From contig JAVYVJ010000001.1 of assembly GCA_038727705.1 (NCBI GenBank), forward strand, positions 221,924 through 285,923: 64,000 nt of DNA, in the 5' to 3' direction. Below are positions 2,157 through 45,168 of this stretch, one piece after another. The position numbers and the translations under genes are program-made. The stretch's first letter is position 1, and each line of letters opens with the position of its first letter. The notes beneath the pieces are model-generated. The model saw only the letters and a list, made by a program, of their open reading frames with translations. It had not been told where the DNA came from and did not search any database. The DNA comes from Zestosphaera sp. (GTDB lineage Archaea > Thermoproteota > Thermoprotei_A > Sulfolobales > NBVN01).

Positions 2157-2606
2157 TTGATATACGGGGTGTGCCAGCTGGAGGGCTGTTCATCAGCCGT
2201 GGCGTCAATCCTTGTTGTTACCCTCCTAATCTCCTCCATAATAGCTTGGTGTGAGACCCCTCATGAGAGATTTATCAGCATCTACTCGAGAGTCGCAGAT
2301 CTTGGCAGGAAGGGTATTGATGTAAGTCAATATGTTGAGGCCCTCGATGAGGTTCTGGAGTTGTTAAAGGTCGGCGACATTAGCAGGGCTGAGGAGATTA
2401 TGGACTCGATTAGCACTAATTTAAGTAGCGTTGAATCCAAGGTTGGTGAGATCCTCCTCGTAAATAATCTGAAGAGGTACGGCACGGCACTTACGTTGCT
2501 TATCACGCCGTTGCTCACGTACCTCCTACTTCCCAGAGTGTACATCTACCTGTGGTTTAGGAGCAGGAGGAAGTGGGTGATAGTTGGTGAACGTGGTAAG
2601 CGATGA
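2157..2606 (+). CDS. Membrane-anchored small protein opening the envelope locus
   Basis: A 149-residue protein with an N-terminal signal/anchor (SILVVTLLISSIIAW), a helical segment rich in Glu/Ser (residues about 38-105), a second membrane segment (ALTLLITPLLTYLLL) and a basic tail RSRRKW. The start is uncertain. TTG 2157 has no Shine-Dalgarno. GTG 2199 would still keep the signal. An in-frame CTG at 2178 sits exactly six bases after GGGGTG. No family recognised. It overlaps the next gene and heads a 14-kb run of same-strand genes. Confidence 0.6.
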   Translation: MIYGVCQLEGCSSAVASILVVTLLISSIIAWCETPHERFISIYSRVADLGRKGIDVSQYVEALDEVLELLKVGDISRAEEIMDSISTNLSSVESKVGEILLVNNLKRYGTALTLLITPLLTYLLLPRVYIYLWFRSRRKWVIVGERGKR

Positions 2607-3093
2607 GGTCTTCGCAGTAATTCTTGCACTGGTTGTGGTGGGCTCCGTCATCTCGACAGCCGCTATACTGAGGCCTGAGGTGACTGAAGCCTTCACAGCC
2701 CTAGGTCTTCTGAATAGAGAGTGTAGGATAGGGGATTATCCAGAGTACGTGATTATCGGCAGTAGCGTTGATTTATGCATGTACGTCTTCAACTACATGG
2801 GTTATCCAGTACTGGCCCAGATTAGGTATAAAGTGGGGAGTGTCAAGGATTTACCCACCAACACCACGCCAAGCGTTCTTGAAACTCTTGAGAACTTCAC
2901 AGTAGTCGTCGCCCACAATAATGAGAAGCTCGTCAAAGCGAGCCTGCCCGTAATGGTTAATGGGTTACCGGTAGGTAAGAACGTAACCCTTATTTTCGAG
3001 CTATGGCTCTACGACACGAATAGGGGTGAGTGGACGTACAGTGGTAGGTGGGCTCACCTACACGTTAAGGTTGTGGAGGTTCCTGTACCATGA
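2587..3093 (+). CDS. DUF1616 C-terminal-like extracytoplasmic protein
   Basis: A 168-residue protein with one N-terminal membrane segment followed by a beta-rich outer domain with several N-x-[ST] sites. The segment around DYPEYVIIGSSVDLCMYVFN and the end LIFELWLYD...LHVKV resemble the outer half of archaeal DUF1616 proteins, which carry a sandwich domain after a membrane domain. GTG 2587 is seven bases after GGTG at 2576-2579; TTG 2584 is an alternative. The matching membrane half is encoded by the next gene, so the two parts are split and in the reverse of the usual order. Confidence 0.6.
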   Translation: MNVVSDEVFAVILALVVVGSVISTAAILRPEVTEAFTALGLLNRECRIGDYPEYVIIGSSVDLCMYVFNYMGYPVLAQIRYKVGSVKDLPTNTTPSVLETLENFTVVVAHNNEKLVKASLPVMVNGLPVGKNVTLIFELWLYDTNRGEWTYSGRWAHLHVKVVEVPVP

Positions 3094-3611
3094 ACGGTAA
3101 GACTCTTGAGGAGTACGTGAACTCCCTCGGCAGGGGTTATAGAAATTTAAGGAGGGCCTACGATGAAGTGGTGAGTGGCAAACTGAACATCATGGATCCG
3201 AACCCCCCTAAGGTCTTTGTAGAATACCTTCTAAGGTTCGATTATAGCACCTGGTTTTGGGTGACGATATCACTCACAATAATCACCATCGCGTCGGTTT
3301 GCCTGACGAGCCTCATCCCTCAGGCAATTTACCTAAGGTACGTTGCGGGGTCGATCTTCACCCTCTTTATAGTCGGCTACACTACGGTGGAACTCCTTTA
3401 TCCGGAGGAGGGGTCTCTTAGTGACCTGGAGAGGCTCGCCTTATCGATAGGGCTCTCGCTGGCTGTAGTGCCTTTGATAGGACTAGCACTTAATTACACT
3501 CCATGGGGTATAAGGCTAGAGCCGGTTCTGACAGTGTTGACGCTGTATTCGACCCTCACAGCCTTAGGAGCTGCGTACAGGAAGTACATCAACCTAAGGA
3601 TGAGATCGTGA
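3090..3611 (+). CDS. DUF1616 membrane-domain protein
   Basis: A 173-residue protein with a soluble N-terminal stretch and four hydrophobic segments. The block from IYLRYVAGSIFTLFIVGYTT through ERLALSIGLSLAVVPLIGL and NYTPWGIRLEPVL matches the membrane domain of archaeal DUF1616 proteins closely by eye. The family has no known biochemical role. The ATG overlaps the previous stop (ATGA) and follows GAGGTTCC, so translation is likely coupled. Its position between the DUF1616-like outer domain and an FtsX-like permease suggests a part in the envelope complex. Confidence 0.7.
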   Translation: MNGKTLEEYVNSLGRGYRNLRRAYDEVVSGKLNIMDPNPPKVFVEYLLRFDYSTWFWVTISLTIITIASVCLTSLIPQAIYLRYVAGSIFTLFIVGYTTVELLYPEEGSLSDLERLALSIGLSLAVVPLIGLALNYTPWGIRLEPVLTVLTLYSTLTALGAAYRKYINLRMRS

Positions 3612-4588
3612 GCTACGCACACGCGTTCAAAGTGCTAGCGCTCTCGGTCATCAGGAAGAGGCAGGCAACACTACTGCTCCTGGTACTGTTGCCTCCTGTG
3701 CTCGTATCGCTGACCCTCACGTCATCGATCGTCGCGCTGAAAACCCAGGCAGATGCTCTAACAAGGTATTACGGCGGACCTTCCTTGGTATTGAGCGACA
3801 ACCAGGTAGGGGGCAAGTGCGTTCATGTGGGTTATGGGGTGCTGAGGGTTGTTGGCAATAACACGATGCACCAGCTACCAGTAGTTGCAACGGAAAGTGT
3901 TTACGAGCTGAATACAGTCCTAGCCATTAAATCACTTAACTCGAGCGTTACGTGCGTAAGTCCTAAAGCGTCGATCAGCGCTCCACTGCTTAGAGTACTT
4001 AACGCCTCCCCGGGCGTGACGCTTAACGTCTGTTTCCGCGATGAATGCCTCAGCATATGCCCGGCCTACCTGCACGTTGCAGGTCTTGAGGGTGTGGTCA
4101 TAGTTGAACACTCCATCACTCAGTTGGATGGTGGATTCCTGTGCATCGCCGATTCAGCGGAGGTGAGTAGCTTAGCAGTTAGATCCCTGTTGGGGGAGCT
4201 AGCCGACTTCTCCAACCTCTATGCTTTACTACTGTTAGTGGTCTACCTTCCTCTGCTATATGTAGTCAACATAAAGGTGTTGTATGAACTCAGGCAGGAG
4301 CTGAAGGCACTTAGGTTGCAGGGTTTGAGCATTTTCAAACTAAGTACGGTCTTCACCTCGCTGGCATGCATGCTTGTCGGCCTCCTCTCCATTTACAGTG
4401 TGACATTAAGCCATTTAATCCTGTATGTAGGAAGCGTTGCACTCAGGTTCTTAAGCGACTCGTTACTCCTAGGCCCTCAGCCCTGCCTTAGCGACCTAGC
4501 ACCAGCGCTATTTATGACGTTGGCGGAGGTTCCTGCCAGCTACGTAGCGTTCAGATTGGGTGAGCTTAATGCGTCTGGCGGTTCTTAA
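3608..4588 (+). CDS. FtsX/MacB-like ABC transporter permease
   Basis: A 326-residue membrane protein: one N-terminal membrane segment after a short basic start, a large outer domain (about residues 40-210) and three C-terminal membrane segments including a stretch with LYELRQELKALRLQGLSI. That topology (1 + outer domain + 3) is typical of FtsX/LolC/MacB permeases, where the E-x-x-x-L-[KR]-x-x-G loop contacts the ATPase. GTG 3608 overlaps the previous stop as GTGA; an upstream ATG at 3503 would lie inside the preceding gene and is less likely. It pairs with the next gene and the ATPase at 7194. Confidence 0.7.
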   Translation: MSYAHAFKVLALSVIRKRQATLLLLVLLPPVLVSLTLTSSIVALKTQADALTRYYGGPSLVLSDNQVGGKCVHVGYGVLRVVGNNTMHQLPVVATESVYELNTVLAIKSLNSSVTCVSPKASISAPLLRVLNASPGVTLNVCFRDECLSICPAYLHVAGLEGVVIVEHSITQLDGGFLCIADSAEVSSLAVRSLLGELADFSNLYALLLLVVYLPLLYVVNIKVLYELRQELKALRLQGLSIFKLSTVFTSLACMLVGLLSIYSVTLSHLILYVGSVALRFLSDSLLLGPQPCLSDLAPALFMTLAEVPASYVAFRLGELNASGGS

Positions 4589-5696
4589 AACTCTTGTTAA
4601 GTGCTTGCCTGCAACTACACATCTAGGGTTTATAACGTTGCTGTCTATGCTTCTGTTTATGTCAATAAGTGTTTTAGGTTATGTTAACTCTCTCTACGGT
4701 CTCTACGAGGAGCTCGTGCTCGGTCCTACTGGGGAGGGTTTAGTCGTATCGAGTTATGCAGTTTCACCCCTCACCTCACTTGTGAGTGAAGTCCGTGTGC
4801 GAAGCCTACTACACAACGTCAGTGGCGTTAGCGTGGAGTTCATCGTGCTCACCCCAGCATACACCATGGGTAGGGTGGTTGTAGTAAGGGGGTTGGAGAG
4901 GGACGTACTGCTGGGTCTGACCGGCGTTGAGCTTCTCAATGATCCCTGCGTTATCGTGGGTGAGGGGTTAGCCTCTGAACTTCATTTGAAGGAGGATGAC
5001 GTGCTACCTCTCTACTCGCCGTTCACCAGAGAGACGGTGTTATGCATAATCTGCTATGTTATACGTCTACCGAGCCTCCTCAACCATGAGGTGGTAACGA
5101 GTCTGGGGGTAGCTAGAACACTTAGAGGCATAGGTAGCGACTATTACTCTGTGGCTGTGTTGCGTGCAAGTAACTTAAGTTCCTTAAACACGCTAGCGGA
5201 AAGAATTGGTTTAAGCCGTGAGGAGGGGTCTCTGATTAGGAGGGCGCTCCTGATACTCGCTCAACAGGGCAGCGGCTTCAACCCCACGGTCTACAGGGAT
5301 ATTCCGGAAGCCTACATGGCTAGACTGGGTTTCCATAAGGATCTTATCTCCACCCTCGCTTACTCTATCGCAACGGTTGTATTGGTGAGCAATCCTCTAA
5401 TAGGTGAGTGCCTTGTCAGAGCCTTGAGGTCGAGTTTAGAGGTGTTTAGATCGTTAGGTCTCTCAAGAGGCTCGCTTATCACGTTACTGCTTCTCATAGC
5501 CTTCATGTACGGGATTGTGGCATTAGCGACAGTCCTCATTATCTCAGAGCATTTGAGAGGCCTGGTGGTGTTGAGGGTCTTGAACTACGTGGTCCAGCCT
5601 AAAATAGGTCTAGAGGACGTCTCCGTGGTGTTCTCTTCAGAAATGACTCTCCTGACGTTGGGAATCGTGTGGGGGTTTAGAAAACATGCGATGTAG
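4569..5696 (+). CDS. Second FtsX/MacB-like ABC transporter permease
   Basis: A 375-residue protein with an N-terminal membrane segment, a long extracytoplasmic domain (about residues 40-270) and three membrane segments at the C-terminus. The loop SSLEVFRSLGLSRGSL before the second of them is the usual FtsX-type coupling loop. The ATG at 4569 lies exactly six bases after GGTG at 4559-4562 and the gene overlaps the previous one by 20 bases. With its neighbour it could make a heterodimeric exporter channel of the LolCE kind. What it moves or pulls is not visible. Confidence 0.7.
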   Translation: MRLAVLKTLVKCLPATTHLGFITLLSMLLFMSISVLGYVNSLYGLYEELVLGPTGEGLVVSSYAVSPLTSLVSEVRVRSLLHNVSGVSVEFIVLTPAYTMGRVVVVRGLERDVLLGLTGVELLNDPCVIVGEGLASELHLKEDDVLPLYSPFTRETVLCIICYVIRLPSLLNHEVVTSLGVARTLRGIGSDYYSVAVLRASNLSSLNTLAERIGLSREEGSLIRRALLILAQQGSGFNPTVYRDIPEAYMARLGFHKDLISTLAYSIATVVLVSNPLIGECLVRALRSSLEVFRSLGLSRGSLITLLLLIAFMYGIVALATVLIISEHLRGLVVLRVLNYVVQPKIGLEDVSVVFSSEMTLLTLGIVWGFRKHAM

Positions 5697-7188
5697 AGCG
5701 CTTTTACTAGTCCTGCTGACCGCCACACTACTTCGGCTCATCCCCACCCTACTCACGAACGAGCCGTTCTCAACGGATGTATGGCCCTTGATCAGGCTGA
5801 GCGAGGAGTTATTGAGGAACCCTGAGTTTAGGGTATTGAGCAGTCCATCCCTCGAAGGCTATCACGGCAGGTGGCCGGCCACCTTGCTTGAAGCCGCCAT
5901 ATACTCAAGGCTCACAAACCTGGAGCCTGAACTGTATTTCAGGTACGTCGGAGTTGTCATCACTTCAGCCTGCCTAGCCATACTTGTTTACGTAACAGTG
6001 AAGAGATGTGCGGGGCTCCGTAGCGCCTTATTAAGCACGATTGTCCTTACTTCAATACCGTCCTTCATAATATTCACGTCAACAGCTCTGAAGGAGGTTC
6101 ACTCATATCCCCTACTGACCGTCCTCATCTTCTTGCTGGTAGTGGGAATCAGTAGGTCAGCTTTAGTCTTGACTGCCTTAACATCGCTGGCTCTAGTTAT
6201 CTCACACCCCTTATCCCCACTGATGTTTATAGCCTTCATGTGTAGCTACATTTTTGTAGCAGTCGCTAAGTATTTGGGGGGTGTTGGAGATCTTCCCCTG
6301 AATCTCAGAGGTCCTCTAATATTCCTCCTCATTCTAAGCCCTGTTTACCTCACCTATATGACCGCATACGGGTGGGAGGGACTTAAGTATAGACCCGGTT
6401 TCAACGACATTCTCGTACTAGGTGCATTCAGTACTGCCCTGTACGGGTGGTATGTCCTCCTGGGGCATGGCTCGGTCGGGTTCTCAGTAATGCCTCTGAT
6501 GCTTGTGGTCATCACCGTACTTGCCACTGGAACTAACTTGGTCTTCGACTGGTCGGTAGCTCTGTACGTGGCGCCGTTCATCCTGCTCCTCATACCATTA
6601 CTTGTTGAGGGGGGTGAGAACTCGCCCCCGGTGCTGGCCCCGATACTCCTCCCAATAACGACCGCAACCCTCTACATAGTCCTCGCATCCCCGGTTCTAA
6701 TGAGCGTACTGCATAGGGTGCTTAACTACCTTGTAATAGCCACTATTGTTGCTTCGTCCTTGCTGAGTAGGAGAGGTAGACTCCTCCATTTATACGTGAC
6801 CATTGTTTTAGCGGTCTCTCTGCTCATGTCTGTAGCTACGGTTGCTAGCGTGATATGTTGCGGTGATTCGATCAGCTTCTACTGGAGATATGGTGAGGGT
6901 GAGGTTCTTGGGGTGCGTAATCTCGTCAAATTCTTCAGCGATGGTATGCTATGCGGTGACGTTAAAATGCAGTACCTTGTCGGCCGGGATCTGAGTGTGG
7001 AGATTTTATGTGGGTTTAGAGCTACGCAGGGACATACCAGGGACACACCTACATTACTCTACCTCGATAACTTCAGATTCGGGTATGTGCTGTCGCCGGT
7101 GGATGTGTATAAGATTAAGAGTATAAACCGCTTAAGCATGTCTAGAGCATTAATCTACAGTAATGTGCATGTTTTCCTCCTGAAGTGA
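5686..7188 (+). CDS. Multi-spanning GT-C-like membrane glycosyltransferase candidate
   Basis: A 500-residue protein with about 11-12 hydrophobic segments. The first loop contains NEPFSTDVWPLI, an acidic motif just after the first membrane segment, as in GT-C glycosyltransferases (PMT, ArnT and AglB type) that use lipid-linked sugars outside the membrane. A soluble C-terminal stretch of about 90 residues follows. I see no longer diagnostic motif, so the catalytic call is tentative. It lies between an FtsX-like permease and its ATPase, with 11-base and 4-base overlaps, suggesting one operon. Confidence 0.5.
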   Translation: MRCRALLLVLLTATLLRLIPTLLTNEPFSTDVWPLIRLSEELLRNPEFRVLSSPSLEGYHGRWPATLLEAAIYSRLTNLEPELYFRYVGVVITSACLAILVYVTVKRCAGLRSALLSTIVLTSIPSFIIFTSTALKEVHSYPLLTVLIFLLVVGISRSALVLTALTSLALVISHPLSPLMFIAFMCSYIFVAVAKYLGGVGDLPLNLRGPLIFLLILSPVYLTYMTAYGWEGLKYRPGFNDILVLGAFSTALYGWYVLLGHGSVGFSVMPLMLVVITVLATGTNLVFDWSVALYVAPFILLLIPLLVEGGENSPPVLAPILLPITTATLYIVLASPVLMSVLHRVLNYLVIATIVASSLLSRRGRLLHLYVTIVLAVSLLMSVATVASVICCGDSISFYWRYGEGEVLGVRNLVKFFSDGMLCGDVKMQYLVGRDLSVEILCGFRATQGHTRDTPTLLYLDNFRFGYVLSPVDVYKIKSINRLSMSRALIYSNVHVFLLK

Positions 7189-7193
7189 TCGCG

Positions 7194-7850
7194 ATGATCA
7201 TACTGTCGTTGAGGGGCGTTAGTAAGGTTGTTGGTGGTGAGGACGTTCTGAGGGACGTCTCCCTCACCTTAGGCTCTGGCGAGACCTTAATTGTCAGGGG
7301 TCGTAGCGGCGTCGGTAAGACGACTCTAGCTAAGATAGCCTCACTACAGCTGATGCCCGATGATGGGATGGTGGAATTCATGGGTAGCAATGTAGCCGGA
7401 CTGAATGATTCAGCTAAATCTACTCTGAGGCTTAAGTATATTGGTTACGTTGATCAGGAGTTCACACTGCTTCCCCGACTCACGGTCCACGATAATGTTG
7501 AATTACCATTAGCCCTCCTTAATGTGCCGAGAAGTGAGAGACGCAGGCGGGTTGCTGAAGTGCTTAGTTACGTAGGTCTGGAGGGTCTGGGACGGAGGTA
7601 TCCGAGCGAGCTAAGCGGTGGCGAAAGGCAGAGAGTGGCTATAGCTAGAGCAGTGGTTAAAACACCTAAACTACTAGTAGCTGACGAGCCGTTCTCGAAT
7701 CTTGACGACGTCACATCGTCCAGAATCTTGACGTTGTTTAGGAGACTCACACATGAGTTTAAGATGGCTATACTGCTGACAACGACGGACTTAAACACTG
7801 AATACGGTGTAGGAGTGAGCAGGACCTTAGAAGGCGGGAAGCTCGTGTAG
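7194..7850 (+). CDS. ABC transporter ATP-binding protein, LolD/MacB type, lacking the H-loop histidine
   Basis: A 218-residue ATPase that should energise the two FtsX-like permeases upstream. Numbered from ATG 7194: Walker A GRSGVGKT at about 36-43, Q-loop Gln 88 in YVDQEFTLLPRLT, signature LSGGERQRV at about 140-148 and Walker B LLVADEP with Glu 165. The switch region reads LLTTTD where this family has THD, so the H-loop histidine is Thr, which is unusual. ATG 7194 lies six bases after the GTG of AAGTGATC; GTG 7185 is an alternative that overlaps the previous stop. Confidence 0.88.
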   Translation: MIILSLRGVSKVVGGEDVLRDVSLTLGSGETLIVRGRSGVGKTTLAKIASLQLMPDDGMVEFMGSNVAGLNDSAKSTLRLKYIGYVDQEFTLLPRLTVHDNVELPLALLNVPRSERRRRVAEVLSYVGLEGLGRRYPSELSGGERQRVAIARAVVKTPKLLVADEPFSNLDDVTSSRILTLFRRLTHEFKMAILLTTTDLNTEYGVGVSRTLEGGKLV

Positions 7851-7901
7851 CAACTTCTCGACCTCAGTTTTTATTGATCTGAGTCTCAGTAGTTTAGGGG
7901 C

Positions 7902-9605
7902 TTGGGTTACGTGACGGCTAATGATTCGGGAAGCCGCGTGAGGATGTTGACAGCCGGTTTCACTATCCTCACTAGCTTCATCGCCCTCCTATCTGAATCC
8001 GCCTATAGGGGGATTGTTGAAAGCTACCTTAAACTGATGTTCGTCGAGGAGTACAACTACTTACTTGTAGTCTTAGCCTCAACACTGACCCTCTTCTACT
8101 ATCTCTTCAGGAGCGTCGGTCTATCCTACGAGGTGAGGGTCAGTAAGGTTATTGTGTCGGTGTTGCTCGCTGACTTAAGCCTCATTTTTTATATTTCCTC
8201 CTTCCTGGATTTAGGGAACGCCGTCCAATATGGAAGCTTAAGTTTAGTTCTGCTTGTGTTGGCTCTCATTATCTTTATCTATAATCCACTCACGCTGAAA
8301 GACTTAATACCTTTGCTTTCGCTCTTCATGCTTGTCCCCCTGCCGACCTCGGTCATAGATTCCGTAACGCCACACTTATCAAGGTTCGTTGGTAGAGCAG
8401 TGGCCGTGCTGACTGGAGTTACATTCATCGAGAATCCTGTATACGCTCAGATAGTGGTTGTGACTCCCTCAGGCCCCGCGGTATTCAATGTTGAGATCGC
8501 CTGCACTGGTATAGTGTCACTCTTATCGGTTTTCGCTGTGATTCCGGTGGTGACGTATCTGGTTGCATTCAGTCCCTCCACTGCGAGGAGGAAAATAGTT
8601 AGCGTTGCAACGTCTCTGATGTTGGCCGTCCTCATAGGTTTTCTCGGAAATTTAGTGAGGGTCCTCCTCGTCATTTGGGGCAGTATGAGTTACGGTGTGG
8701 AGGTGGGCATGGAGTTGTTTCACTCCCCCCTCTCAATAGTTTTTTCAACGCTCTCGGTCCTCGCCGCGTTTTTTGTGGCCGACAGGTACGCGGGCTTAAG
8801 GCGCTTAACACCTAGATCCGTTGGAAGCTGGTCCAGGATTGAGTGGGGATTCGTTGCTGGAGTTCTCGCCGTGACGCTCATCTTCACCTCAGTTTACGCT
8901 GTGACACTGCATTACATAGCGTCACCCAACATTAACGATGCGTTGCGGAGGGATGGTATAGTGCTCGGTGACAACGAGCTGAGCGACTTCATGAACAATC
9001 CGCCGAGATACGTCTTCAGCGGGAGAGGGGACTTAACACTCACGCATCAGTCCTACAGCAGTTACTTGACGAGGGTCCTGGGGGCCTTCAGCGTCTATGA
9101 GGTCGTCCTTGTGAAAGATGGCGTTCCCCACTTCGGCTATGTTGAGGTAGCTGACACGCCCGGCAGGTTCCACACGTGGCAACTCTGCCTAAGGCTTCAG
9201 GGATACAGGGTCGTTAACTCGTGGAGTAGGATCTTCAATGGGACAAGGCTCTATTTCATAGAGGTTGAGAGGGACTCGATTGAGGGACTCCTAGGCTACG
9301 TCATAATGCCCGTCTTTATAGGTGATTCCAACGCGCAGGCGATAGCTTACGTCAGGGCGTCCCTGATGATGTTCTCACCGAACCTTGACGTGGGCAGGGT
9401 CGAGGGGAATTTATCAAAAGCTCTTGTGCTGGGCTCACCAGGTAGAAGTCCTAACTTAAGTCAGAGTTATACGGCGATGTTGTACTGGGCAACGCTAGCT
9501 TCCTATATCTTGACGATGATCCTGGTCGTTTACTTGACAGTAACATGGTCACCGCATTTAATCAACTCACTGAAAAACTTATTTGGCTTCTTGAAAGGGA
9601 AGTGA
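7902..9605 (+). CDS. Exosortase/archaeosortase family transpeptidase with EpsI-like C-terminal domain
   Basis: Predicted membrane cysteine transpeptidase that cuts and re-anchors surface proteins carrying a C-terminal sorting signal. About eight membrane segments hold the family triad: Cys 201 in IACTGIVSL, Arg 253 in GNLVRVLL and His 274 in ELFHSPLSI. After residue 305 comes another membrane segment, an outer domain with RFHTWQLCLRLQGY (His 424, Cys 429), which resembles the H-x-P-x-x-C-L motif of EpsI, and a last membrane segment. TTG 7902 is the earliest start; GTG 7911 is possible. A TATA-like TTTTTATT at about 7868-7875 suggests its own promoter. Confidence 0.8.
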   Translation: MGYVTANDSGSRVRMLTAGFTILTSFIALLSESAYRGIVESYLKLMFVEEYNYLLVVLASTLTLFYYLFRSVGLSYEVRVSKVIVSVLLADLSLIFYISSFLDLGNAVQYGSLSLVLLVLALIIFIYNPLTLKDLIPLLSLFMLVPLPTSVIDSVTPHLSRFVGRAVAVLTGVTFIENPVYAQIVVVTPSGPAVFNVEIACTGIVSLLSVFAVIPVVTYLVAFSPSTARRKIVSVATSLMLAVLIGFLGNLVRVLLVIWGSMSYGVEVGMELFHSPLSIVFSTLSVLAAFFVADRYAGLRRLTPRSVGSWSRIEWGFVAGVLAVTLIFTSVYAVTLHYIASPNINDALRRDGIVLGDNELSDFMNNPPRYVFSGRGDLTLTHQSYSSYLTRVLGAFSVYEVVLVKDGVPHFGYVEVADTPGRFHTWQLCLRLQGYRVVNSWSRIFNGTRLYFIEVERDSIEGLLGYVIMPVFIGDSNAQAIAYVRASLMMFSPNLDVGRVEGNLSKALVLGSPGRSPNLSQSYTAMLYWATLASYILTMILVVYLTVTWSPHLINSLKNLFGFLKGK

Positions 9606-10558
9606 GGGATGAGGGGTTGGATCTCGATAACATCAAACAGATTATGAGGGACTTCATGAATGAGCTTGGGAAAGTGTATGTTGGTAAGTTGGAAACAGTT
9701 AAACTGGCAGTCACTACCTTATTCAGCGGTGGGCATCTTCTGATAGAGGGTTACCCGGGAACCGGTAAGACTCTTCTGGCCAAATCCCTCTCCAAGGCGA
9801 TGGGGGGCGAGTTCAGAAGGATTCAAGGACATCCGGACATACTCCCAACAGACATTCTAGGATTTCATGTTTACAGGTTGAATGGCAGTAAGGAGTTCGT
9901 CAAGGGGCCTATCTTCACCAACATACTCATGTTCGACGAGCTTAACAGAGTCCCCACAAGGTCTCAGGCGGCCCTTCTGGAGGCGATGCAAGAGTATAGG
10001 GTGACTGTTGACGGGGTCCCTTACCCACTTCCTAAACCCTTTATGGTCATAGCTACTGAGGTCTCACCAAGAGTTGCTACAGGCTGGTATCAGATAATGG
10101 AGACGTTGGCCGATAGGTTCGCCGCCAGAGTTCCGAGCTACTACAACCCTCCCGACGAAGAGGTCGAGATAATTAAGAGGGCGGAGATGGCGGTGGATCC
10201 AGCCTTACAGCAGATTACAGCACTTGATACCGTGCTTGAGGTGAGCAGGGCCCTAGAGCACCTGATCCACCTCAGCGAGGTCGTTGTCGAGTATATCGTC
10301 AGGTTAATATCCTACTTAAGGGATCATGAAGCCGTTCTCTACGGACCCTCGCACAGGGCGTCAATACATTTAGCAATGTTAAGCAGGGCCTACGCCTCAA
10401 TGAATGGAAGGGACTACGTGATCCCCGATGACGTAAAAGCTCTTGCAGTTCCAGTAGTAGCTCACAAGGTCAAGGTTAAGGAGGAGTATGAGGCGGAAGG
10501 CGTAACGCCTGAATCCCTGGTTGAGGAGGCCCTCAGGAAGGTACCAGTGCCTAAGTAG
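9602..10558 (+). CDS. MoxR-family AAA+ ATPase
   Basis: AAA+ chaperone-like ATPase that usually works with DUF58/von Willebrand-type partners to mature or load membrane proteins. Walker A is EGYPGTGKT (about residues 49-57 from GTG 9602) and Walker B is ILMFDELNR (about 108-116), followed by the family's P-TRSQAALLEAMQE segment and a lid domain with PSHRASI. The GTG overlaps the preceding stop as GTGA; TTG 9617 and ATG 9545 are alternatives. Its DUF58 partner is encoded five genes downstream on the same strand. Confidence 0.9.
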   Translation: MRDEGLDLDNIKQIMRDFMNELGKVYVGKLETVKLAVTTLFSGGHLLIEGYPGTGKTLLAKSLSKAMGGEFRRIQGHPDILPTDILGFHVYRLNGSKEFVKGPIFTNILMFDELNRVPTRSQAALLEAMQEYRVTVDGVPYPLPKPFMVIATEVSPRVATGWYQIMETLADRFAARVPSYYNPPDEEVEIIKRAEMAVDPALQQITALDTVLEVSRALEHLIHLSEVVVEYIVRLISYLRDHEAVLYGPSHRASIHLAMLSRAYASMNGRDYVIPDDVKALAVPVVAHKVKVKEEYEAEGVTPESLVEEALRKVPVPK

Positions 10559-10567
10559 TTGATTGAT

Positions 10568-11224
10568 ATGCGGCTTGAGATAGTGAGTCTTCTTGGGGTC
10601 TGTGTGTCAAACTTGCTCACGATCTTGCTAGGACCCAGCATCTACGCCCTAGCTATAGTAGCTTTCACATTGCTCACGGTCTGCAACTTAACGTTCTACG
10701 GGATTTATAAGGGCGTGAACCCAACATTCATTCCCGCTGGACTCACTGCCGCCACGCTGGTTTACTTGATTGTTGAGTTCCTCTCATTACCTGACTTCAT
10801 TGTGGAAATCCCATTGCTTGCTGTTCTATTGATGTTAGCTAGCCTTCATTGGGACTCCCTAGGTGTTAGGGGGTCTTTCAGCTACGCAACGCCTCCAGCC
10901 CTCCTAGCAGGGGTTCTGATCGGTATTTGGGTTGGTCTAGGGACCCCGCTTAGGTTCTGCCTAGCCTCTATGATAGAGACTACTTACTACAGATTGTTAA
11001 GGGAGTATTATCGGTTGGGGGGTTTTGCTCTATGCTTGACGTCCCTTCTATTCATAGCCATTTATGTGAGCCCCTTACTCAGCATTAACGTCTCTTTCCT
11101 AGCGTTTAGCCTGCTTCTCTACGTTTGTAAAGCATACCTTTTCGAGAGAGGGCTTAGCAACGCGACTCATATAGCTGATCTGGACGTGTTTCTTAAGCCT
11201 CTGGCGGCGGGGTGGCTGGCATGA
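10568..11224 (+). CDS. Polytopic membrane protein of the MoxR/DUF58 cluster, unknown
   Basis: A 218-residue, mostly hydrophobic protein with six or seven predicted membrane segments and few charged loops; one loop contains YYRLLREYYRLGG. I recognise no motif. ATG 10568 is chosen over TTG 10559 by codon preference; neither has a clear ribosome site. It sits directly between the MoxR ATPase and a second membrane protein in a tightly spaced run. Confidence 0.55.
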   Translation: MRLEIVSLLGVCVSNLLTILLGPSIYALAIVAFTLLTVCNLTFYGIYKGVNPTFIPAGLTAATLVYLIVEFLSLPDFIVEIPLLAVLLMLASLHWDSLGVRGSFSYATPPALLAGVLIGIWVGLGTPLRFCLASMIETTYYRLLREYYRLGGFALCLTSLLFIAIYVSPLLSINVSFLAFSLLLYVCKAYLFERGLSNATHIADLDVFLKPLAAGWLA

Positions 11225-11919
11225 ACAGGAATCTACTGATTCTAGGCACTAACATCTTAGCGATATCCGCTCTAGCATTTCTCTATGGTCTCGTCACGGA
11301 CAAACCCCCCTTGGTGGGGGTGGCTCTCTCATCAATTCTCATGGGGTTAGTACTACTCGTGTCGAGTTTCGCAGCCACTGAAATTATTGCTAACGCACTA
11401 ATCGAGTACTCCAGGCTCCTCAGCAAAGCCCTGACAAGTATTGTGGAGGATGTGGACCTGCTCGAGTCTAAGCTTTGTGTAGTCCGGAGTGATGAAGGTT
11501 TACGGTTGATTATAGCTAAGGCGGGCAAGCTCAAGGACGTTGATCCGGGGCTAGGGGTCAGGTATGGAGGGCCTTACTTAGCAATACCGGTTGATGACGT
11601 GCTTAAGGACGTATCCCAGATTGAGGAGGTTGGGGAGGGGGTGATTGAATCTGGTTTGAATTCAGTGCTCGTCGAGTCGCTTGGTCTATGTAGTAGGGTT
11701 CTAGTAAGGCAGTCAGGGAGGTTTCTGAAGATAGAGCTGATAGAACCGAACAAAACTTTAGATAACTTCAGAGGGTTGCCTGTGAATCCCTTCAATATGT
11801 TGGTTTCTGTAGCGCTGAGTAGGATAGTGGGTAAGGACGTGATGTTAGTTGAGGCAGGGAGTTTCGCAGGGGGTGTGTACTTCACCCATGAGGTGATGGA
11901 TAGTGGTGGGCCTCATTGA
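11221..11919 (+). CDS. Membrane-anchored cytoplasmic-domain protein of the MoxR/DUF58 cluster
   Basis: A 232-residue protein with two adjacent N-terminal membrane segments followed by a soluble alpha/beta domain of about 160 residues. No family recognised. ATG 11221 lies exactly six bases after GGGGTG at 11210-11215 and overlaps the previous stop as ATGA. Codon use and spacing match the neighbours, so it is probably part of the same operon. Confidence 0.55.
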   Translation: MNRNLLILGTNILAISALAFLYGLVTDKPPLVGVALSSILMGLVLLVSSFAATEIIANALIEYSRLLSKALTSIVEDVDLLESKLCVVRSDEGLRLIIAKAGKLKDVDPGLGVRYGGPYLAIPVDDVLKDVSQIEEVGEGVIESGLNSVLVESLGLCSRVLVRQSGRFLKIELIEPNKTLDNFRGLPVNPFNMLVSVALSRIVGKDVMLVEAGSFAGGVYFTHEVMDSGGPH

Positions 11920-12157
11920 AAGGTTCGTAATGCTCTATACGGGCCTGACCTCCTCATTCAACGTATTACTTCTGCTTCTGAGGGAGTCAAGGATAGATGC
12001 CTACGTGGCTCTGAACATACTCTCATTTTACATTAGCTACTCCATCATGAGACCTTTCCCGAAAACGAACACTCCCGTCAAGCTGTTGCACGCGATGTTA
12101 CTCACGGTCTTCATGATGATAGTGGGGATTAGGGTGTACGAGGTTCTTGTGGGATGA
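11903..12157 (+). CDS. Small two-span membrane protein
   Basis: An 84-residue protein with two hydrophobic segments (about residues 8-28 and 60-82) joined by a loop with IMRPFPKTNTPVK. GTG 11903 follows AGGTGATGG with seven bases between; it overlaps the previous gene by 17 bases and the next by 4. Function unknown. The overlaps on both sides argue that it is a real, co-translated member of the cluster. Confidence 0.55.
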   Translation: MVGLIERFVMLYTGLTSSFNVLLLLLRESRIDAYVALNILSFYISYSIMRPFPKTNTPVKLLHAMLLTVFMMIVGIRVYEVLVG

Positions 12158-13941
12158 GGACAGCAATTCTATTATATTTAGCTACGTTGCTGATCCTCGC
12201 AGTAATCTTGCCTCAGCCCATCCAGGCCTCCAACCCAGAGCTTGTTGATTGTTCATGCTTACTGATTCTTCTTGAGAAAGCTTTGGATGCTGCGTCTTAC
12301 GGAACTCCTGGAGCGGATCGGGTGCTTCATGCCCTCAGGGAAGCATCCATACCTGGTGAGCTGGGCAGGTTACATAAGGAAGTATACAGCCTATTGCTTG
12401 AGTACTACGACTACGCTGTAGCGGCTACTCAAGACGTGTTGACTAGGGAGGAGATTCAGAGGGTAGTTGCTGAATTGACTGTTCTTCAGTCTAAACTTCC
12501 CGGCAGGATTGGTCAATATGTAGGTATGTTGAGCTCATGCGCTCACGACCCAGCGATCCCCACTATGTTGAGGGTAAGCATATCCTCCAGCGTTGATAGG
12601 ATAGCTGAAGAGATCATACCCCATTTAATCGACGCAGCCCTCTCCAAGCGTATGGGCTCTTCAGACACTATACACTTAGAGTTAAGTAAGGAGGCCTGCA
12701 TTCCGGGGGAGGTTGTAGAGCTGAAGGTAGTGTTAGGTAACCCGGCTTTAAGGCTGGAGAGTGTTTACATCCTCACGTGGCCTTCCCTAAGCAGGGTATC
12801 GACCATCAACGTGACTCCCAGTCCTTGGGGCTATTCAGGTCTGTTCAGAATACCGAAGGCCAGTGAGTTCGTAGGTTCAACTACTAGGTCTGGGCTATCG
12901 TTAGTTGCTGTGGCGGTAGCGCGTAACGTGTCGGACGGAGGGATCCTCACAAGCTACAGACTGTTTAAGGTAGCCTATAAGGTCCCCAACATCTCCGTGG
13001 AAGCTCCTGCTACAATCCGCAGGGGTGATACCATGGTTTTAAGAATTCACTCAGATAGCAATTACAGCTCATTGATCAGATTTAACGGTATGACGGTCGG
13101 CAACATAACCTTAATCCCCGGTGTGACTCTCTACTACTTGGACACCCTTGCACTAAACGTCTCAGCCGGCGTTAACCTGATTGAGATAGTCGTGGAGCCC
13201 ACGTCCGAGAGTGTTGGACTGACCGTCTCTAAGACTGTTTTGGCTGTATCTAAAACGCCTGAGGTTGAGATCGGATTCTCTGAGCCCTTTTTCACCAACG
13301 ACGGGTTTCTCACACTAGTGCTTATTAATAAGAACCCGGCAGACGCTCACCTAGTGGTTAAGGTGTACGTGGGTGGGAGATTCGCCGGCGAGTACATACT
13401 TAACGACAGTCTTACGGTGAGGGCATTCGCGAGCCCTCTCCCATCCTTAATCACGGACCTGTCGGTCATTGTCGAGCCTTCAACGCCTGGCCAAGACCCC
13501 TACATTTTCAGAGATTCAGTCTTAGTGATCAACCCCGTCGCAACGTTGTTACTGGGTCTAATTTCGGTTCCCGCGGTTGTCCTCACAGCAGGTAGTGAGA
13601 AGGGAATTACACTTATGCTTCGGAGCCTCGTGAGGGGTGGCGACAGGAGTTCGAGGAGATCGATGGGAGGCCCGCACGCCTCCCTAACTAAGCCTTACAT
13701 GATCTCTTCGAGAATTGCCGATCTATACTACGCAACGATTCGAAGGCTGAAGGTCTCCACACCCGAGGCTAGTGAGACGTTGAGAGAGCACTTCAGCAGA
13801 ACCTTTTCGGGCATTACAGGGATTAGGGAACTTCTCTGGAGATTCCTGGTGTTAGTTGAGCTGGACTTGTACTCCAGGAGGAGGCAGAACTACGTTGAGG
13901 CATTAAAGTTGGCGGAGGAGGTGATGAGGAATGAGGATTAA
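12154..13941 (+). CDS. Large secreted-domain protein with signal peptide and cytoplasmic helical tail
   Basis: A 595-residue protein: cleavable-type signal (ILLYLATLLILAVILPQPIQA), an alpha-helical outer part (to about residue 170), then beta-sandwich segments with many N-x-[ST] sites (about 180-460), one membrane segment (NPVATLLLGLISVPAVVLTA) and a helical cytoplasmic tail ending in LKLAEEVMRNED. The layout, outer sandwich domains plus a DUF4129-like tail, resembles BatD/DUF4129 partners of MoxR-DUF58 systems. Domain identity is inferred from layout, not from a motif. ATG overlaps the previous stop (ATGA). Confidence 0.55.
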   Translation: MRTAILLYLATLLILAVILPQPIQASNPELVDCSCLLILLEKALDAASYGTPGADRVLHALREASIPGELGRLHKEVYSLLLEYYDYAVAATQDVLTREEIQRVVAELTVLQSKLPGRIGQYVGMLSSCAHDPAIPTMLRVSISSSVDRIAEEIIPHLIDAALSKRMGSSDTIHLELSKEACIPGEVVELKVVLGNPALRLESVYILTWPSLSRVSTINVTPSPWGYSGLFRIPKASEFVGSTTRSGLSLVAVAVARNVSDGGILTSYRLFKVAYKVPNISVEAPATIRRGDTMVLRIHSDSNYSSLIRFNGMTVGNITLIPGVTLYYLDTLALNVSAGVNLIEIVVEPTSESVGLTVSKTVLAVSKTPEVEIGFSEPFFTNDGFLTLVLINKNPADAHLVVKVYVGGRFAGEYILNDSLTVRAFASPLPSLITDLSVIVEPSTPGQDPYIFRDSVLVINPVATLLLGLISVPAVVLTAGSEKGITLMLRSLVRGGDRSSRRSMGGPHASLTKPYMISSRIADLYYATIRRLKVSTPEASETLREHFSRTFSGITGIRELLWRFLVLVELDLYSRRRQNYVEALKLAEEVMRNED

Positions 13942-14761
13942 GGAGTTGATCCTGGTTGGTGTTCTATTAGGTCTAATGATGGGGTCTGCCGCGATATACG
14001 TATATCCATCCACAACCAGTTACAGCATCGTCAACTACGGTGATGAAGGCCTTTCTATGCTCGCGCATGTTTTTAACGCCTCCATATCGTTGGAGGCGGA
14101 CGTCTTACGTGATGTGGAGGCTTTGAAAACCGCGTACCTAATCATTCGTTCAAAAAGTGTAGCATCTAATGAAATAGAGGAAATCACGAACTTCCTCAGT
14201 AGGGGTGGTTACGTAGTGGCTTCAGGCACGCCTGAGTTCATAGGTAGTTTGATTAAACATCTGAACATCACCATGAAGGTTGAGGGCGGAACCATCTGTG
14301 ACATGGTTTACAACTACGGTGATAGATTTCACCCCCTAGGTTTCTCAAGTTATTGCAATACGATTGTCGTCCCTTACGTACCTTATCATGTAGTGACTGA
14401 GGGTTTGGTGGTGTTGTCATATACTAGTAACTTCTCGTACGTGGATGTTGATGAGGACGGCTACATGGACATTAACGAGCCGCTGGGACCGTTCCCCCTG
14501 GCGGTTCTAGCTGATGTGGGTGAGGGTCGTCTGGTCTTCATCTCATCCCCGCACATCTTCACAAATAAGTTGCTCAACCTAAACAGGGAATTCATTCAAT
14601 GCATCTTAGGAGGCAGGAACCTGATTATAGATCAGGCGGATGTTAGGCAATCCTTTTTAGAGTACTTTAGACTCCTAGTGAGTACCCGTGGTGTGACGTA
14701 TTACATGTTCGTATTTCTGGCAATCGTTCTGAGTCTGGTGATTTACTATGTATTTAGGTAG
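13931..14761 (+). CDS. DUF4350-like membrane protein
   Basis: A 276-residue protein with an N-terminal and a C-terminal membrane segment around a Rossmann-like outer domain: a strand and helix with DVEALKTAYLIIRSKS, the turn EEITNFLSRGGYVVASG and later GEGRLVFISSPHIFTN. This is the pattern of DUF4350 proteins, which sit next to MoxR and DUF58 genes in many archaea and bacteria. DEDGYMDIN in the outer domain looks like a calcium-binding loop. ATG 13931 is seven bases after GGTG at 13920-13923 and overlaps the upstream gene by 11 bases. Confidence 0.65.
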   Translation: MRIKELILVGVLLGLMMGSAAIYVYPSTTSYSIVNYGDEGLSMLAHVFNASISLEADVLRDVEALKTAYLIIRSKSVASNEIEEITNFLSRGGYVVASGTPEFIGSLIKHLNITMKVEGGTICDMVYNYGDRFHPLGFSSYCNTIVVPYVPYHVVTEGLVVLSYTSNFSYVDVDEDGYMDINEPLGPFPLAVLADVGEGRLVFISSPHIFTNKLLNLNREFIQCILGGRNLIIDQADVRQSFLEYFRLLVSTRGVTYYMFVFLAIVLSLVIYYVFR

Positions 14762-16442
14762 AGTCAGCACCTTAGTTCTCGCGGCGTCCTCCCTGATGAT
14801 TGTGACAGGCTTCTATAATGCGCTGACATTGGGTGATCTCATCTACATTGTGTACAGTTCGGTTGCCGCAGTGCTTTACGTACGTCTGACGGGCTTCCCC
14901 AGACTCTTGACGGGCTTGACGTGGTGTTTGCTTGCTGTAGGAGAGACCCCGCTCTCCACGCTGGCTAGCATCATCTTATCTGTTCTCACCCCTTACGTCC
15001 ATGATGTAGTGGCTCGCGAACCTTTGGAGGGGTTGCTCTCCTTGAGACTGTCTTCAATAGTCCTGGTCTTTACTCCGCTCTACCTACTGAGGCCATGCAC
15101 CTTGATCCCTGCCATGTCGTACGTAACGTCAATACTTGTCTTGACCACCATCTCGTACTTACATCTCTCCAGGTCGCGGGTCCTCTTAGAGAGGACTTCG
15201 TACTCAATTTATCTAGGCGAACATGCTGAGGTCACGGTTGGGGTTGATGTCCTCAACAATTCCTCGTACAGCATAGTAATCAATGACATTCCAGTGATGA
15301 GAGGCTCTACGAGGGGTTCCAACACTTTTACCGTCAGATTATCGCCTAGGACGGCAGGTGTGCACACGTACTTTCTGAAGGTTGCTTTAAGCGACTTGAG
15401 ACACTTCTCGAGACTCGTCCACGGCCCATACGCGATCAGGGTGAAGGCGATCCCTAAGTCGATGGTAATAGTCAGGAGGGTTAGAGAGTTGCTGAGCAGG
15501 TATGTGTCCCTAGTTAGAACTCCGACAATATATGTGGGCAGGTTAGAACTCATTGAGAGCCACAGGGCGTCACGCGGGGGAGGCAGTGATGGTGAGGGGG
15601 CTGGGGCAAGCGTTGCCGGGGCCACCCCTCTGAGGGTGGGTGAGGGCATAGTCGGCGACATTGTTGGTGAGGAGGGCTTAAGTAGCAGTCGACGAGTCGG
15701 AGCTAGGTTTAGGTTTAGATGGGTAATCCCTACCAAGATCCTTGAATCCATTGAACGTCAGACAGTCGGGACCCTTGCAGGTGATTATGTGGGTGTTAGA
15801 GAGTATTACCCCGGCGATCACCCGAGGAGTATTCACTGGAAGAAGAGCGCCAGCATTGGGGATTTAGTGGTTAAAGTGTTTACGCACGGCAAGGAAGGCG
15901 GTGGCGGCAGGCCAAGCCTCATCGTTGCCGACTGGGATGCTTCAAACCCGCTAGAACTTGATAACCTGATACAGGCAACCTACAGCGCCTTGCTAACGGT
16001 TGATTCCACGAAAACCCTCTACTTAAGGCTCCCGAACGGGAAGATATACTTCATCAAGGGGGACTTGGCGAGTGTCTTAAACGCTCTGGACCTAATAATC
16101 CGTATCGAGGATGTTGAGGCGAGGTTCAACTACGATAGTTGGGTCAGGGAGAGGGCTCGGAGCACCATTGAAGAGCTTAAAAATGGTAAGGGTTTTCTAA
16201 AATCTCTAGACCAGTACTATAGGGCGCTGACCCAATCGATTGTCGAGGGGCTGGAGGAGCACGGGCTGGTGAAGGGCTCGAACTTCTTCATACTACATCC
16301 CCGCGCCCACACACTTAAATATACATACCTAGCACACGCCTTGAGGATGAAGGGGTATACCACGACGCGCGTCGTGAAATTACTTCAGCCGGATGAAGTT
16401 GTTGAGAAGTTAAGAGACTCGATAACTTCACTCCCACCTTGA
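14748..16442 (+). CDS. DUF58 domain protein
   Basis: A 564-residue partner of the MoxR ATPase. Four or five N-terminal membrane segments are followed by a beta domain (about 150-235), a low-complexity Gly/Ser linker (275-315) and the DUF58 core, with REYYPGDHPRSIHWKKSAS at about 351-369; the R-x-Y-x-x-G-D-x-x-R-x-I-x-W pattern defines the family. A von Willebrand-like fold with VADWD follows. ATG 14748 lies seven bases after GGTG and overlaps the previous gene by 14 bases. It closes the same-strand envelope locus. Confidence 0.85.
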   Translation: MYLGRVSTLVLAASSLMIVTGFYNALTLGDLIYIVYSSVAAVLYVRLTGFPRLLTGLTWCLLAVGETPLSTLASIILSVLTPYVHDVVAREPLEGLLSLRLSSIVLVFTPLYLLRPCTLIPAMSYVTSILVLTTISYLHLSRSRVLLERTSYSIYLGEHAEVTVGVDVLNNSSYSIVINDIPVMRGSTRGSNTFTVRLSPRTAGVHTYFLKVALSDLRHFSRLVHGPYAIRVKAIPKSMVIVRRVRELLSRYVSLVRTPTIYVGRLELIESHRASRGGGSDGEGAGASVAGATPLRVGEGIVGDIVGEEGLSSSRRVGARFRFRWVIPTKILESIERQTVGTLAGDYVGVREYYPGDHPRSIHWKKSASIGDLVVKVFTHGKEGGGGRPSLIVADWDASNPLELDNLIQATYSALLTVDSTKTLYLRLPNGKIYFIKGDLASVLNALDLIIRIEDVEARFNYDSWVRERARSTIEELKNGKGFLKSLDQYYRALTQSIVEGLEEHGLVKGSNFFILHPRAHTLKYTYLAHALRMKGYTTTRVVKLLQPDEVVEKLRDSITSLPP

Positions 16443-21043: not shown

Positions 21044-21440
21044 TTCTCTACTCACCTTACTTGGCTGATGAGATGCTAAAAGCGTGGAAAGCCTTCCTGG
21101 AGTTTGTCCCTGAAAACCTCTCGCCGCTTTTGACATCTCGTTTTTAAATTTTGACTTCAAAGTTAATAAACCTATCGTTAACTTTATCAATTAAAAAATT
21201 TTAGTTACAATAACAACACCCTATAATTAACCTTAACAAACTATTCAAATAAATTTAAACACCTAGTCTTTAAATTTCAAAAACATAAATCACAAACTAG
21301 AATTAATATCGATCCTTATAACGGGGTGTAGGGATAGGCATCTACGGGATGCTCGTTGAAGACAAAGCATTCCTGATTATAGAGAAGCCCCTGGAAATGA
21401 GGCAGCGCTTCAAGTCCTCAATGGATCTGATTTAGAGGTT
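21044..21440. other. AT-rich intergenic stretch without a convincing gene
   Basis: About 400 bases between the surface-protein gene and a TnpB remnant. The part from 21160 to 21330 is far richer in A and T than the rest of the window and holds several TATA-like runs for the surface-protein gene. A 28-codon open stretch from ATG 21350 to TAG is too short to support. Together with the adjacent TnpB fragment it looks like the edge of transferred DNA. Confidence 0.4.
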
Positions 21441-21905
21441 TTATTCTCTCGATCCAGCTATCATGTTAGCAAAACTACGCTGAGAAGTATGATTAGAAGA
21501 TCCCGTTTTCCGTCCTAGGTTTTTGTAGGTTTTTCTAGGACGGGTTGTGCCTCTTGCCCTGCGGTTCACCGTGGCTACTAGCCACTCTACGCAGGGGTCA
21601 TGGACACCGTTCGAGCCCAACGGCACGGGGCTCACATCTAGTTTTAGAGCTATGTTCCATGCACCAACTACATCCCTGTCGTGGGTGAATCCGCACTTCC
21701 CGCACTTCACAAACCTAGGGGCTCAAGCTCTACGTGATGTTCTCCAGGAGTGTTAAGCAAGAGGAGAACTACAGTAAGGTTATCGGCGTAGCCCAGGACA
21801 ATCCTGCTGTGATTGGTTACGATCGTGATAGCCCTGCGATCGGGTAGTATGAGTAGAGTTACGTTGTTCTCGTTTACATCCACACCTCGTCGGAGGTGAT
21901 CTACG
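21441..21905 (-). pseudogene. tnpB: Decayed TnpB (IS200/IS605- or IS607-type) fragment
   Basis: Two recognisable pieces of a TnpB RNA-guided nuclease lie in order on the - strand. The first, near 21860-21900, encodes the RuvC-I motif GVDVNENNVTLL. The second, 21441-21710, encodes the zinc-ribbon end KCGKCGFTHDRDVVGAWNIALK. Stops, frame changes and a large deletion remove the RuvC-II region, and the CxxC pair of the ribbon's first half is missing. No transposase gene or clear element ends remain. It lies 140 bases from tRNA-Arg. Confidence 0.7.
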
Positions 21906-35956: not shown

Positions 35957-36151
35957 GGTCACTTAAGTCCTTTGGCAGGACTCCGCCGATAAAGGTTATT
36001 ATGCCTCGACGTGAGGAGATCCTGGAATGAGGAGTGTGGCGGTCTCTGACACGTGATGTCTTAGGAGCCCACTGACCGGCTATCAAGCATGTTGTTGCCA
36101 CTGCTCCACTGCCCTTTAATGTCGTCACTCAGTATGTTATTGGTGGTGTGT

Positions 36152-36682
36152 TTGATACTCTCGGATTTCGACTTGACGTGGTACTTAAAATCTGGGAGGT
36201 TAGTGATAGACCCATACGATGAGGAGATCATTAGGGAGAATGGGATTGACCTGCGCATCGGTAGTGAGATAGCCAGGCTGAAGCCGGTTAACAAGGTTCT
36301 TGACACTAAAGACTGCACCGCAGATTTGAGCGAGTTCTATGAAATAATATCTGGCGATGAGTTCGTGATATATCCTGGCGAGAGGGTCCTTATGACGACC
36401 CTCGAGTACGTTAAACTACCTAACGATATAATGGGCTTTGTGGAGCTCAGATCTTCCTTCGCCAGACTGGGTCTCACAATACCACCCACGATAATCGATG
36501 CGGGCTTCGAGGGCAACATAACCTTAGAAGTGCACGGATCCATATTCCCGGTGAAGGTATATAGGAGTCAGAGGTTCGCGCACATCATATTCTCTAAAAC
36601 ACTGAACCCGGTTATGAAGCCCTACAAGGGCAAATACCAAGGGCAGAGGGGAGTTACATTACCTAAACTGACTTTAACGTGA
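36152..36682 (+). CDS. dcd: dCTP deaminase
   Basis: Converts dCTP to dUTP (some archaeal forms go on to dUMP). The start ILSDFDLTWYLKSGRLVIDP is family-typical. The trimer-core motif appears as ELRSSFARLGLTIPPTIIDAG and GNITLEVHGS, with the catalytic Glu in the second. TTG 36152 is six bases after GGTG at 36142-36145 and gives the standard N-terminus; earlier starts add 21 unrelated residues. Confidence 0.9.
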   Translation: MILSDFDLTWYLKSGRLVIDPYDEEIIRENGIDLRIGSEIARLKPVNKVLDTKDCTADLSEFYEIISGDEFVIYPGERVLMTTLEYVKLPNDIMGFVELRSSFARLGLTIPPTIIDAGFEGNITLEVHGSIFPVKVYRSQRFAHIIFSKTLNPVMKPYKGKYQGQRGVTLPKLTLT

Positions 36683-36800
36683 TGCGTTGGATCTCAGGTC
36701 CTTACGGATTTAATGCGATGCAAACCTCACCCGCCGAAATCCGCATCGCATTAGCTTTCTAGGCTTGTAGTACATTTAGTACAACAATAATATCATTCGA

Positions 36801-36839
36801 ATATATATAACTTGTCCCAATAATAATGAACTTGAGGTG
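36801..36839 (+). promoter_or_regulatory. TATA box and Shine-Dalgarno of the M14 peptidase gene
   Basis: ATATATATAA at 36801-36810 is a strong TATA box. GAGGTG at 36834-36839 begins about 28 bases after its centre. The in-frame codon five bases further on is ATA 36845, not ATG; the next in-frame ATG is 36863. Confidence 0.5.
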
Positions 36840-36844
36840 TAGCT

Positions 36845-42524: not shown

Positions 42525-42588
42525 GCACGCCAACCACTTAAGCTGAAAGTATATTTTCTGGGTAAGCATATAGTTAATTGGTGTGAGT

Positions 42589-44309: not shown

Positions 44310-44310
44310 G

Positions 44311-45165: not shown

Positions 45166-45168
45166 TGC

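Follow-up and report, generated by a model that had tools for sequence, protein, structure and literature searches.

Why should the gene for a predicted protein-sorting enzyme stand inside a cluster of MoxR, DUF58, DUF4350 and DUF1616 genes, and do the two act together? The question is raised by a locus at positions 2157–16442 of the 64,000-nucleotide stretch of Zestosphaera sp. DNA analysed here (the window), which belongs to a genome of 1.59 Mb in four contigs that is 98.6% complete. The window encodes reverse gyrase, a family B DNA polymerase and deoxyhypusine synthase, which indicate a hyperthermophilic archaeon. The locus consists of 15 open reading frames (ORFs; g1 to g15), all on the + strand and with almost no intergenic space, and has three layers: a core of the arCOG01314 type, an exosortase-like archaeosortase, and an ATP-binding cassette (ABC) transporter cassette of the MacB/FtsX type that encloses a multi-transmembrane (TM) protein. 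The locus is probably one of envelope assembly and sorting in hyperthermophilic Thermoproteota, in which the core has a dedicated sortase partner. A further proposal is put forward tentatively: that Thermoproteota have a PEP-CTERM-type sorting pathway in which the exosortase-like enzyme is built into the MoxR-DUF58-DUF4350-DUF1616 machine as one of its integral subunits, and in which this machine processes surface hydrolases and adhesins after export and anchors them.

The sortase gene, g8 (7902–9605, +), was identified with curated profiles. Its product scored 48.6 bits against PF09721 (Exosortase_EpsH; cut-off 25.7 bits, E = 9.1e-13) and 30.9 bits against TIGR04178 (exo_archaeo; cut-off 23 bits), in agreement with the original prediction of a sorting transpeptidase in this locus. 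The catalytic triad was complete, with the Cys in VEIACTG, the Arg in GNLVRV and the His in LFHSP, and the C-terminal ectodomain was long and conserved. Scores lay under the cut-offs of the named subfamilies (8TM_EpsH, 33.7 against 105.55; XrtS, 16.7 against 145) and none of the ArtA-E models was matched. Based on these matches and the triad, g8 is a member of the exosortase/archaeosortase superfamily and a predicted transpeptidase or protease.

The distribution of the sortase, of g13 as a marker of the core, and of C-terminal sorting signals was determined by profile searches of 214 genomes of the window's order. A sortase search of 151 genomes of the phylum gave five matches including the window genome, all within that order, and the nine named relatives from a narrower sortase scan were all metagenome-assembled genomes of Thermoproteota, including Thermosphaera sp., Thermogladius sp. 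and other Desulfurococcaceae. Among the 214 genomes the sortase was present in 43 and g13 in 54, with both in 39 (Fisher 8e-26, without correction for relatedness). In 31 of the 32 genomes carrying both on one contig they lay no more than 4.1 kb apart. The constant part of the loci was g9–g15 together with g1–g3, the latter standing after g15 in most relatives. The grouping of these genes recurred in over 20 genomes from several families, a clustering far beyond chance. A gene order unique to this genome, with the sortase and MoxR-DUF58 parts occurring independently elsewhere, had been named as a refutation of the original prediction; instead, their combination was conserved among the relatives.

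Secreted proteins of the relatives (identified below by our own G and L handles) carry a C-terminal tripartite signal resembling that of PEP-CTERM proteins, namely a P[IV]PEP motif, a TM helix and a basic tail. Among the proteins so tagged are an SNase-domain protein, a subtilase, a GH57 protein and adhesin-like Ig/beta-helix proteins. In an ORF scan around the relatives' loci, tagged genes adjoined the core in two genomes (G224 and G221) and the sortase in a third (G227). The homologue in G223 ends in PPYYPVPEPGLLIGIATAVSVLAMLLLLKRRR and exceeded the curated TIGR02595 cut-off for bacterial PEP-CTERM; homologues of this tagged protein were present in 12 genomes, 11 of them sortase-positive, and in their tails the motif was mostly kept while the TM sequence diverged. 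At least eight PEP-tagged surface proteins were found in G193, and other tagged proteins in G281, G335 and G338. The number in G193 (L158-L164, L130) contrasts with the one or few of most relatives.

A profile built from 22 of the signals was then run on all 214 genomes. Signals covering both motif and TM helix at E ≤ 1e-5 were present in 18 of the 43 sortase-positive genomes compared to 2 of the 171 sortase-negative ones. The signals stand at the exact C-termini of many unrelated proteins, among them matches outside the profile set in G212, G281, G282, G174, G336, G337, G213, G235, G255, G195, G196 and G276. Two sortase-negative matches were discarded as signals, one lying away from the C-terminus (G218) and one in a 47-aa frame (G254). 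The TIGR02595 model alone was too weak as a scan, with matches in 12 of 14 control genomes at E ≤ 10. Motif-less matches in G000 (L167, L171 and L173), which have only a TM helix and tail, looked like ordinary stalked membrane anchors and were set aside.

The ends of one protein family largely followed the presence of the sortase. Nuclease-propeller orthologues terminate in PIPEP, PIPEN or PIPED plus a TM helix in the sortase-positive genomes G224, G289, G214, G234 and G235, compared to a Thr-rich stalk and a plain TM helix in two related genomes, G107, which has no sortase, and G101, which has a sortase remnant. The state of the enzyme pointed the same way: among 34 readable sortases the triad was intact in 26, of whose genomes 20 had signals, and broken in 8, whose genomes had none (raw p 1.7e-4).

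Several observations weigh against a working partnership of sortase and core. When the link between triad and signal was assessed on the tree, about five independent contrasts remained, of which 3.3 agreed and 0 opposed (median p 0.25); the co-variation thus goes one way and is not significant after correction for relatedness. The signal profile was itself derived from signals of sortase-positive genomes. Signals were also present in four sortase-negative drafts (G282, G337, G195 and G196), all congeners of positive genomes, and the sortase-positive G226 has a stalked copy of the nuclease-propeller protein. In addition, 15 genomes have the core with no detectable sortase, which indicates that the core has a function of its own.

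This last pattern would be expected if sortase and core were independent systems that share an envelope gene island and do not cooperate. The variable placement of the sortase, which may precede MoxR, follow DUF58 or be encoded on the other strand, agrees with independence, as does the occurrence of PEP signals on varied proteins, none of them a core subunit. Such independence is nevertheless quite improbable given the phyletic pattern, a nearly nested one (39 of the 43 genomes with a sortase also have the core), and given the short distance between them, which was maintained despite rearrangement. The one distant case was G220, where the sortase has lost both Cys and His.

The broken triads bear on a second alternative, in which the sortase homologue serves the MoxR-DUF58 complex mainly as a structural or chaperone component, its catalysis repeatedly lost and perhaps dispensable in the window genome. 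Loss of the triad occurred in at least 5–7 separate events on the tree, and seven of the eight affected genes still adjoin core genes; the keeping of broken copies in the locus by several genomes makes a non-catalytic role possible and counts against the partnership as proposed. Broken-triad sortases beside the core include L064:10564-12291, L074:3518-5206, L082:9927-11507 and L080:10606-12141. The window sortase itself clusters weakly (support 87) with the broken-triad sortases of G215 and G131, two genomes that have no tagged proteins. The window triad, however, is complete, most genomes with an intact triad have signals, and simple gene decay could explain the broken copies, so that a mainly structural role is considered unlikely.

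The window genome provides a further point in favour of the structural role and against the partnership. Despite the intact triad, neither profile nor pattern searches of this genome gave a PEP-type tagged protein, and five other intact-triad genomes were likewise without a signal, while G289, a congener of the window organism, has one on its SNase-domain protein; another congener, G288, has no sortase. A divergent signal, a missed substrate or a non-catalytic sortase could each account for this. The sorting substrates that had been expected to co-occur with the locus were found in the relatives and not in the genome in which they were predicted. A large secreted protein near the locus (18647–21190, -), with four SdrD_B-type domains (3.9e-46) and an N-terminal hydrophobic segment, was considered as a substrate and rejected, as its C-terminus has no TM helix or tail.

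On the preferred reading, of a core with a dedicated sortase partner, the following sequence of events can be proposed. Secreted proteins would exit through Sec and then be retained by the P[IV]PEP motif, TM helix and basic tail. The sortase Cys would cut at the motif and hand the protein on; the likeliest acceptor would be a membrane lipid, by analogy with haloarchaea, for which PMC7157517 contains a report of lipid anchoring of ArtA substrates. The core, comprising MoxR, DUF58 and DUF4350 proteins, the Ig/DUF4129 protein, the split DUF1616 and the small membrane proteins, may be a membrane complex of the arCOG01314 kind remodelled by ATP, which would present, assemble or quality-control the sorted products at the surface, with the exosortase-like archaeosortase as its dedicated partner. 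The MacB/FtsX-type cassette and its multi-TM protein would be an optional extra, perhaps serving to supply or move a lipid or an anchored protein. The originally suggested role in export, glycosylation, anchoring and maturation of surface proteins draws partial support from the candidate sorting substrates of the relatives; its glycosylation part does not, depending on a single gene of unconfirmed family in an accessory cassette.

The gene organization was partly as first described. The shared strand was correct; the count was 15 ORFs rather than thirteen, and the overlaps between called ORFs, given as mostly 4–20 bases, ranged from 4 to 109 bp. The 109-bp overlap of g3 and g4 shrinks to 4 bp with the g3 stop if g4 starts at GTG 3608. 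The sole gap, of 51 bp, lies between g7 and g8, making two transcription units, g1–g7 and g8–g15, plausible.

The first genes of the locus belong to the core. The small membrane protein g1 (2157–2606, +), with 2 TM helices, is a recurrent core member that exceeded no family cut-off; its orthologues account for 20 ORFs of the loci, usually directly after the DUF58 gene in relatives. The split of DUF1616 over two genes was upheld: g3 (3090–3611, +) matched PF07760 at 2.5e-26 over profile positions 4–117, the TM half, and orthologues of g2 (2584–3093, +) matched positions 152–286 (2.2e-8). As judged from these matches, DUF1616 is divided with its halves in reversed order, g2 being the C-terminal or ectodomain half, with an N-terminal anchor helix and conserved NHMGYP and ELW motifs, and g3 the N-terminal half.

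The remaining core genes follow the sortase. The product of g9 (9545–10558, +) is a MoxR-type AAA+ ATPase (AAA_3, 2.4e-41; AAA_lid_2, 4.4e-19). Next are g10 (10559–11224, +), a polytopic membrane protein of about 7 TM helices with orthologues among 17 ORFs, g11 (11212–11919, +), which has two N-terminal TM helices, a soluble domain and 25 orthologues, and g12 (11903–12157, +), a small 2-TM membrane protein with 24 orthologues. The AlphaFold2 model of g13 (12154–13941, +; pLDDT 76) comprises a helical bundle, a series of Ig-like domains, a TM helix and a helical cytosolic part; the protein begins with a signal peptide, and its C-terminus corresponds to a DUF4129-like domain that was detected in 5 of 17 orthologues (best 1.1e-7). 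Fold matches of g13 in the PDB had low TM-scores and were set aside as generic Ig-domain matches. The arCOG01314-like g14 (13931–14761, +) matched DUF4350 (PF14258, 3.7e-8) and has an extracellular domain and a C-terminal TM helix. The vWA-like DUF58 protein g15 (14748–16442, +), with N-terminal TM helices, scored 19.6 bits, under the Pfam cut-off of 23.4; 6 of 15 orthologues matched, and the motif GEYxGxREYxPGDxPRxIHWKK was conserved. The MoxR and DUF4350 partners of the original prediction were accordingly recovered in the window itself, and the DUF58 partner through its orthologues.

Since DUF4350 was found on proteins of g15 length in relatives, g14 and g15 appear to be fused there. Long g15-type ORFs with no separate g14 were seen at L080:3922-6291, L081:2645-5140, L082:3125-5569, L083:2283-4733 and L092:5503-7998, and three sequences of the g15 alignment contained DUF4350, consistent with a DUF4350-DUF58 fusion.

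The Ig-rich ectodomains resemble S-layer modules, which raises a third alternative: that the locus builds one dedicated surface structure, either an S-layer anchor or the cannulae of Pyrodictiaceae, in which a passage of PMC13140500 suggests DUF58 proteins to take part. That suggestion covers one genome and, in the part consulted, comes with no test; moreover, the locus spans several families and the tags are borne by hydrolases and adhesins of diverse kinds. A single dedicated structure is therefore regarded as highly improbable.

The ABC cassette comprises four genes. The ATPase g7 (7185–7850, +) was recognized directly (PF00005, 9.2e-32). The permease g5 (4560–5696, +) is probably of MacB/LolC type, with orthologues matching MacB_PCD (2.1e-5) and FtsX (0.0018–0.013) and a g5 profile matching LolC (6.4e-4). 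The other permease, g4 (called as 3503–4588, +; likely start GTG 3608 from its context), had no match in a Pfam search and is probably FtsX-like, as suggested by a weak FtsX match of one orthologue (0.025). Of the two FtsX-like permeases and ATPase proposed earlier, the ATPase is thus established and the permeases are probable, judged from orthologues and LolC similarity. Between g5 and the ATPase gene lies g6 (5686–7188, +), a multi-TM protein of about 12 helices with conserved STDVW, GYxxxWP and KE motifs. It had been described as a GT-C-like protein and possible lipid-sugar transferase. This identity was not confirmed: Pfam searches, orthologues included, and PDB searches gave no relative, and the AlphaFold2 model (pLDDT 34.7) was unusable for fold comparison. 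Besides the window, the cassette with the g6 gene was present in 7 of 32 fetched relative stretches, some of which end early, which suggests that it is accessory to the locus rather than a constant part.

How much of the locus was already described? Makarova, Galperin and Koonin (2015; PMC5898192) predicted a putative secretion system around arCOG01314 (DUF4350), whose neighbourhood contains a MoxR-family ATPase and a vWA-type protein together with pfam07760 proteins, small membrane proteins and Ig-like proteins predicted to lie at the surface. The window likewise has DUF4350, the MoxR ATPase, pfam07760 and an Ig-like surface protein in one neighbourhood, and the likely counterpart of the vWA partner is g15, below cut-off in the window. 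PMC5898192 nowhere uses the word 'sortase'; the exosortase-like enzyme, the split of DUF1616 and, in some genomes, the ABC cassette are additional here. The claim that the whole combination was undescribed must therefore be narrowed: most of the core is known from that prediction, and the coupling of the sortase to it looks new, judged on the literature searched.

That literature on archaeosortases deals mainly with haloarchaea and methanogens and contained no report of PEP-CTERM-like signals in hyperthermophilic Thermoproteota. Bacterial exosortase/PEP-CTERM systems (EpsH, XrtA; PMC1569441) share the EpsH-type enzyme and the tripartite C-terminal signal, and sortases of the present set match the XrtA and 8TM_EpsH models; the system here differs in being archaeal and beside a MoxR-DUF58 core, in its P[IV]PEP signal, and in the few tagged proteins of most genomes. 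ArtA/PGF-CTERM is archaeal, of the same superfamily and acts on surface proteins, but its signal motif is different, and the consulted part of PMC7157517 describes no comparable locus. Type VII ABC transporters (MacB, LolCDE, FtsEX) resemble the cassette in having one ATPase and two permeases of MacB/LolC-type similarity, but here a family-less multi-TM gene lies between permease and ATPase genes, and no outer membrane is expected in these archaea. Clusters of MoxR, DUF58, DUF4350 and DUF4129 are a known type. All four families are found here, with DUF4129 on an Ig-bearing surface protein and with sortase and DUF1616 added.

For the MoxR-DUF58-DUF4350-DUF1616 core, which occurs widely in archaea, a bioinformatic prediction is all there has been so far. 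The sortase link gives it a testable set of clients, the tagged nuclease, subtilase, GH57 and adhesin-like proteins, and the findings suggest that hyperthermophilic Thermoproteota have a sorting code resembling PEP-CTERM. Natural contrasts, in which the sortase is lost or inactive or the tag is lost, can be utilized without genetics.

Elsewhere in the window, short ORFs at 21441–21710 (-) and 56616–56894 (-) matched a Cas12f1-like TNB domain and are apparent remnants of TnpB-type transposon genes. The ORFs in differing frames at 36089–39420 (+) resemble one broken gene for a secreted protein; three pieces were scanned, with no Pfam match. Four consecutive genes of similar size lie at 42583–45978 (+), the first with four CBS domains (9.1e-42) and the others alike by eye.

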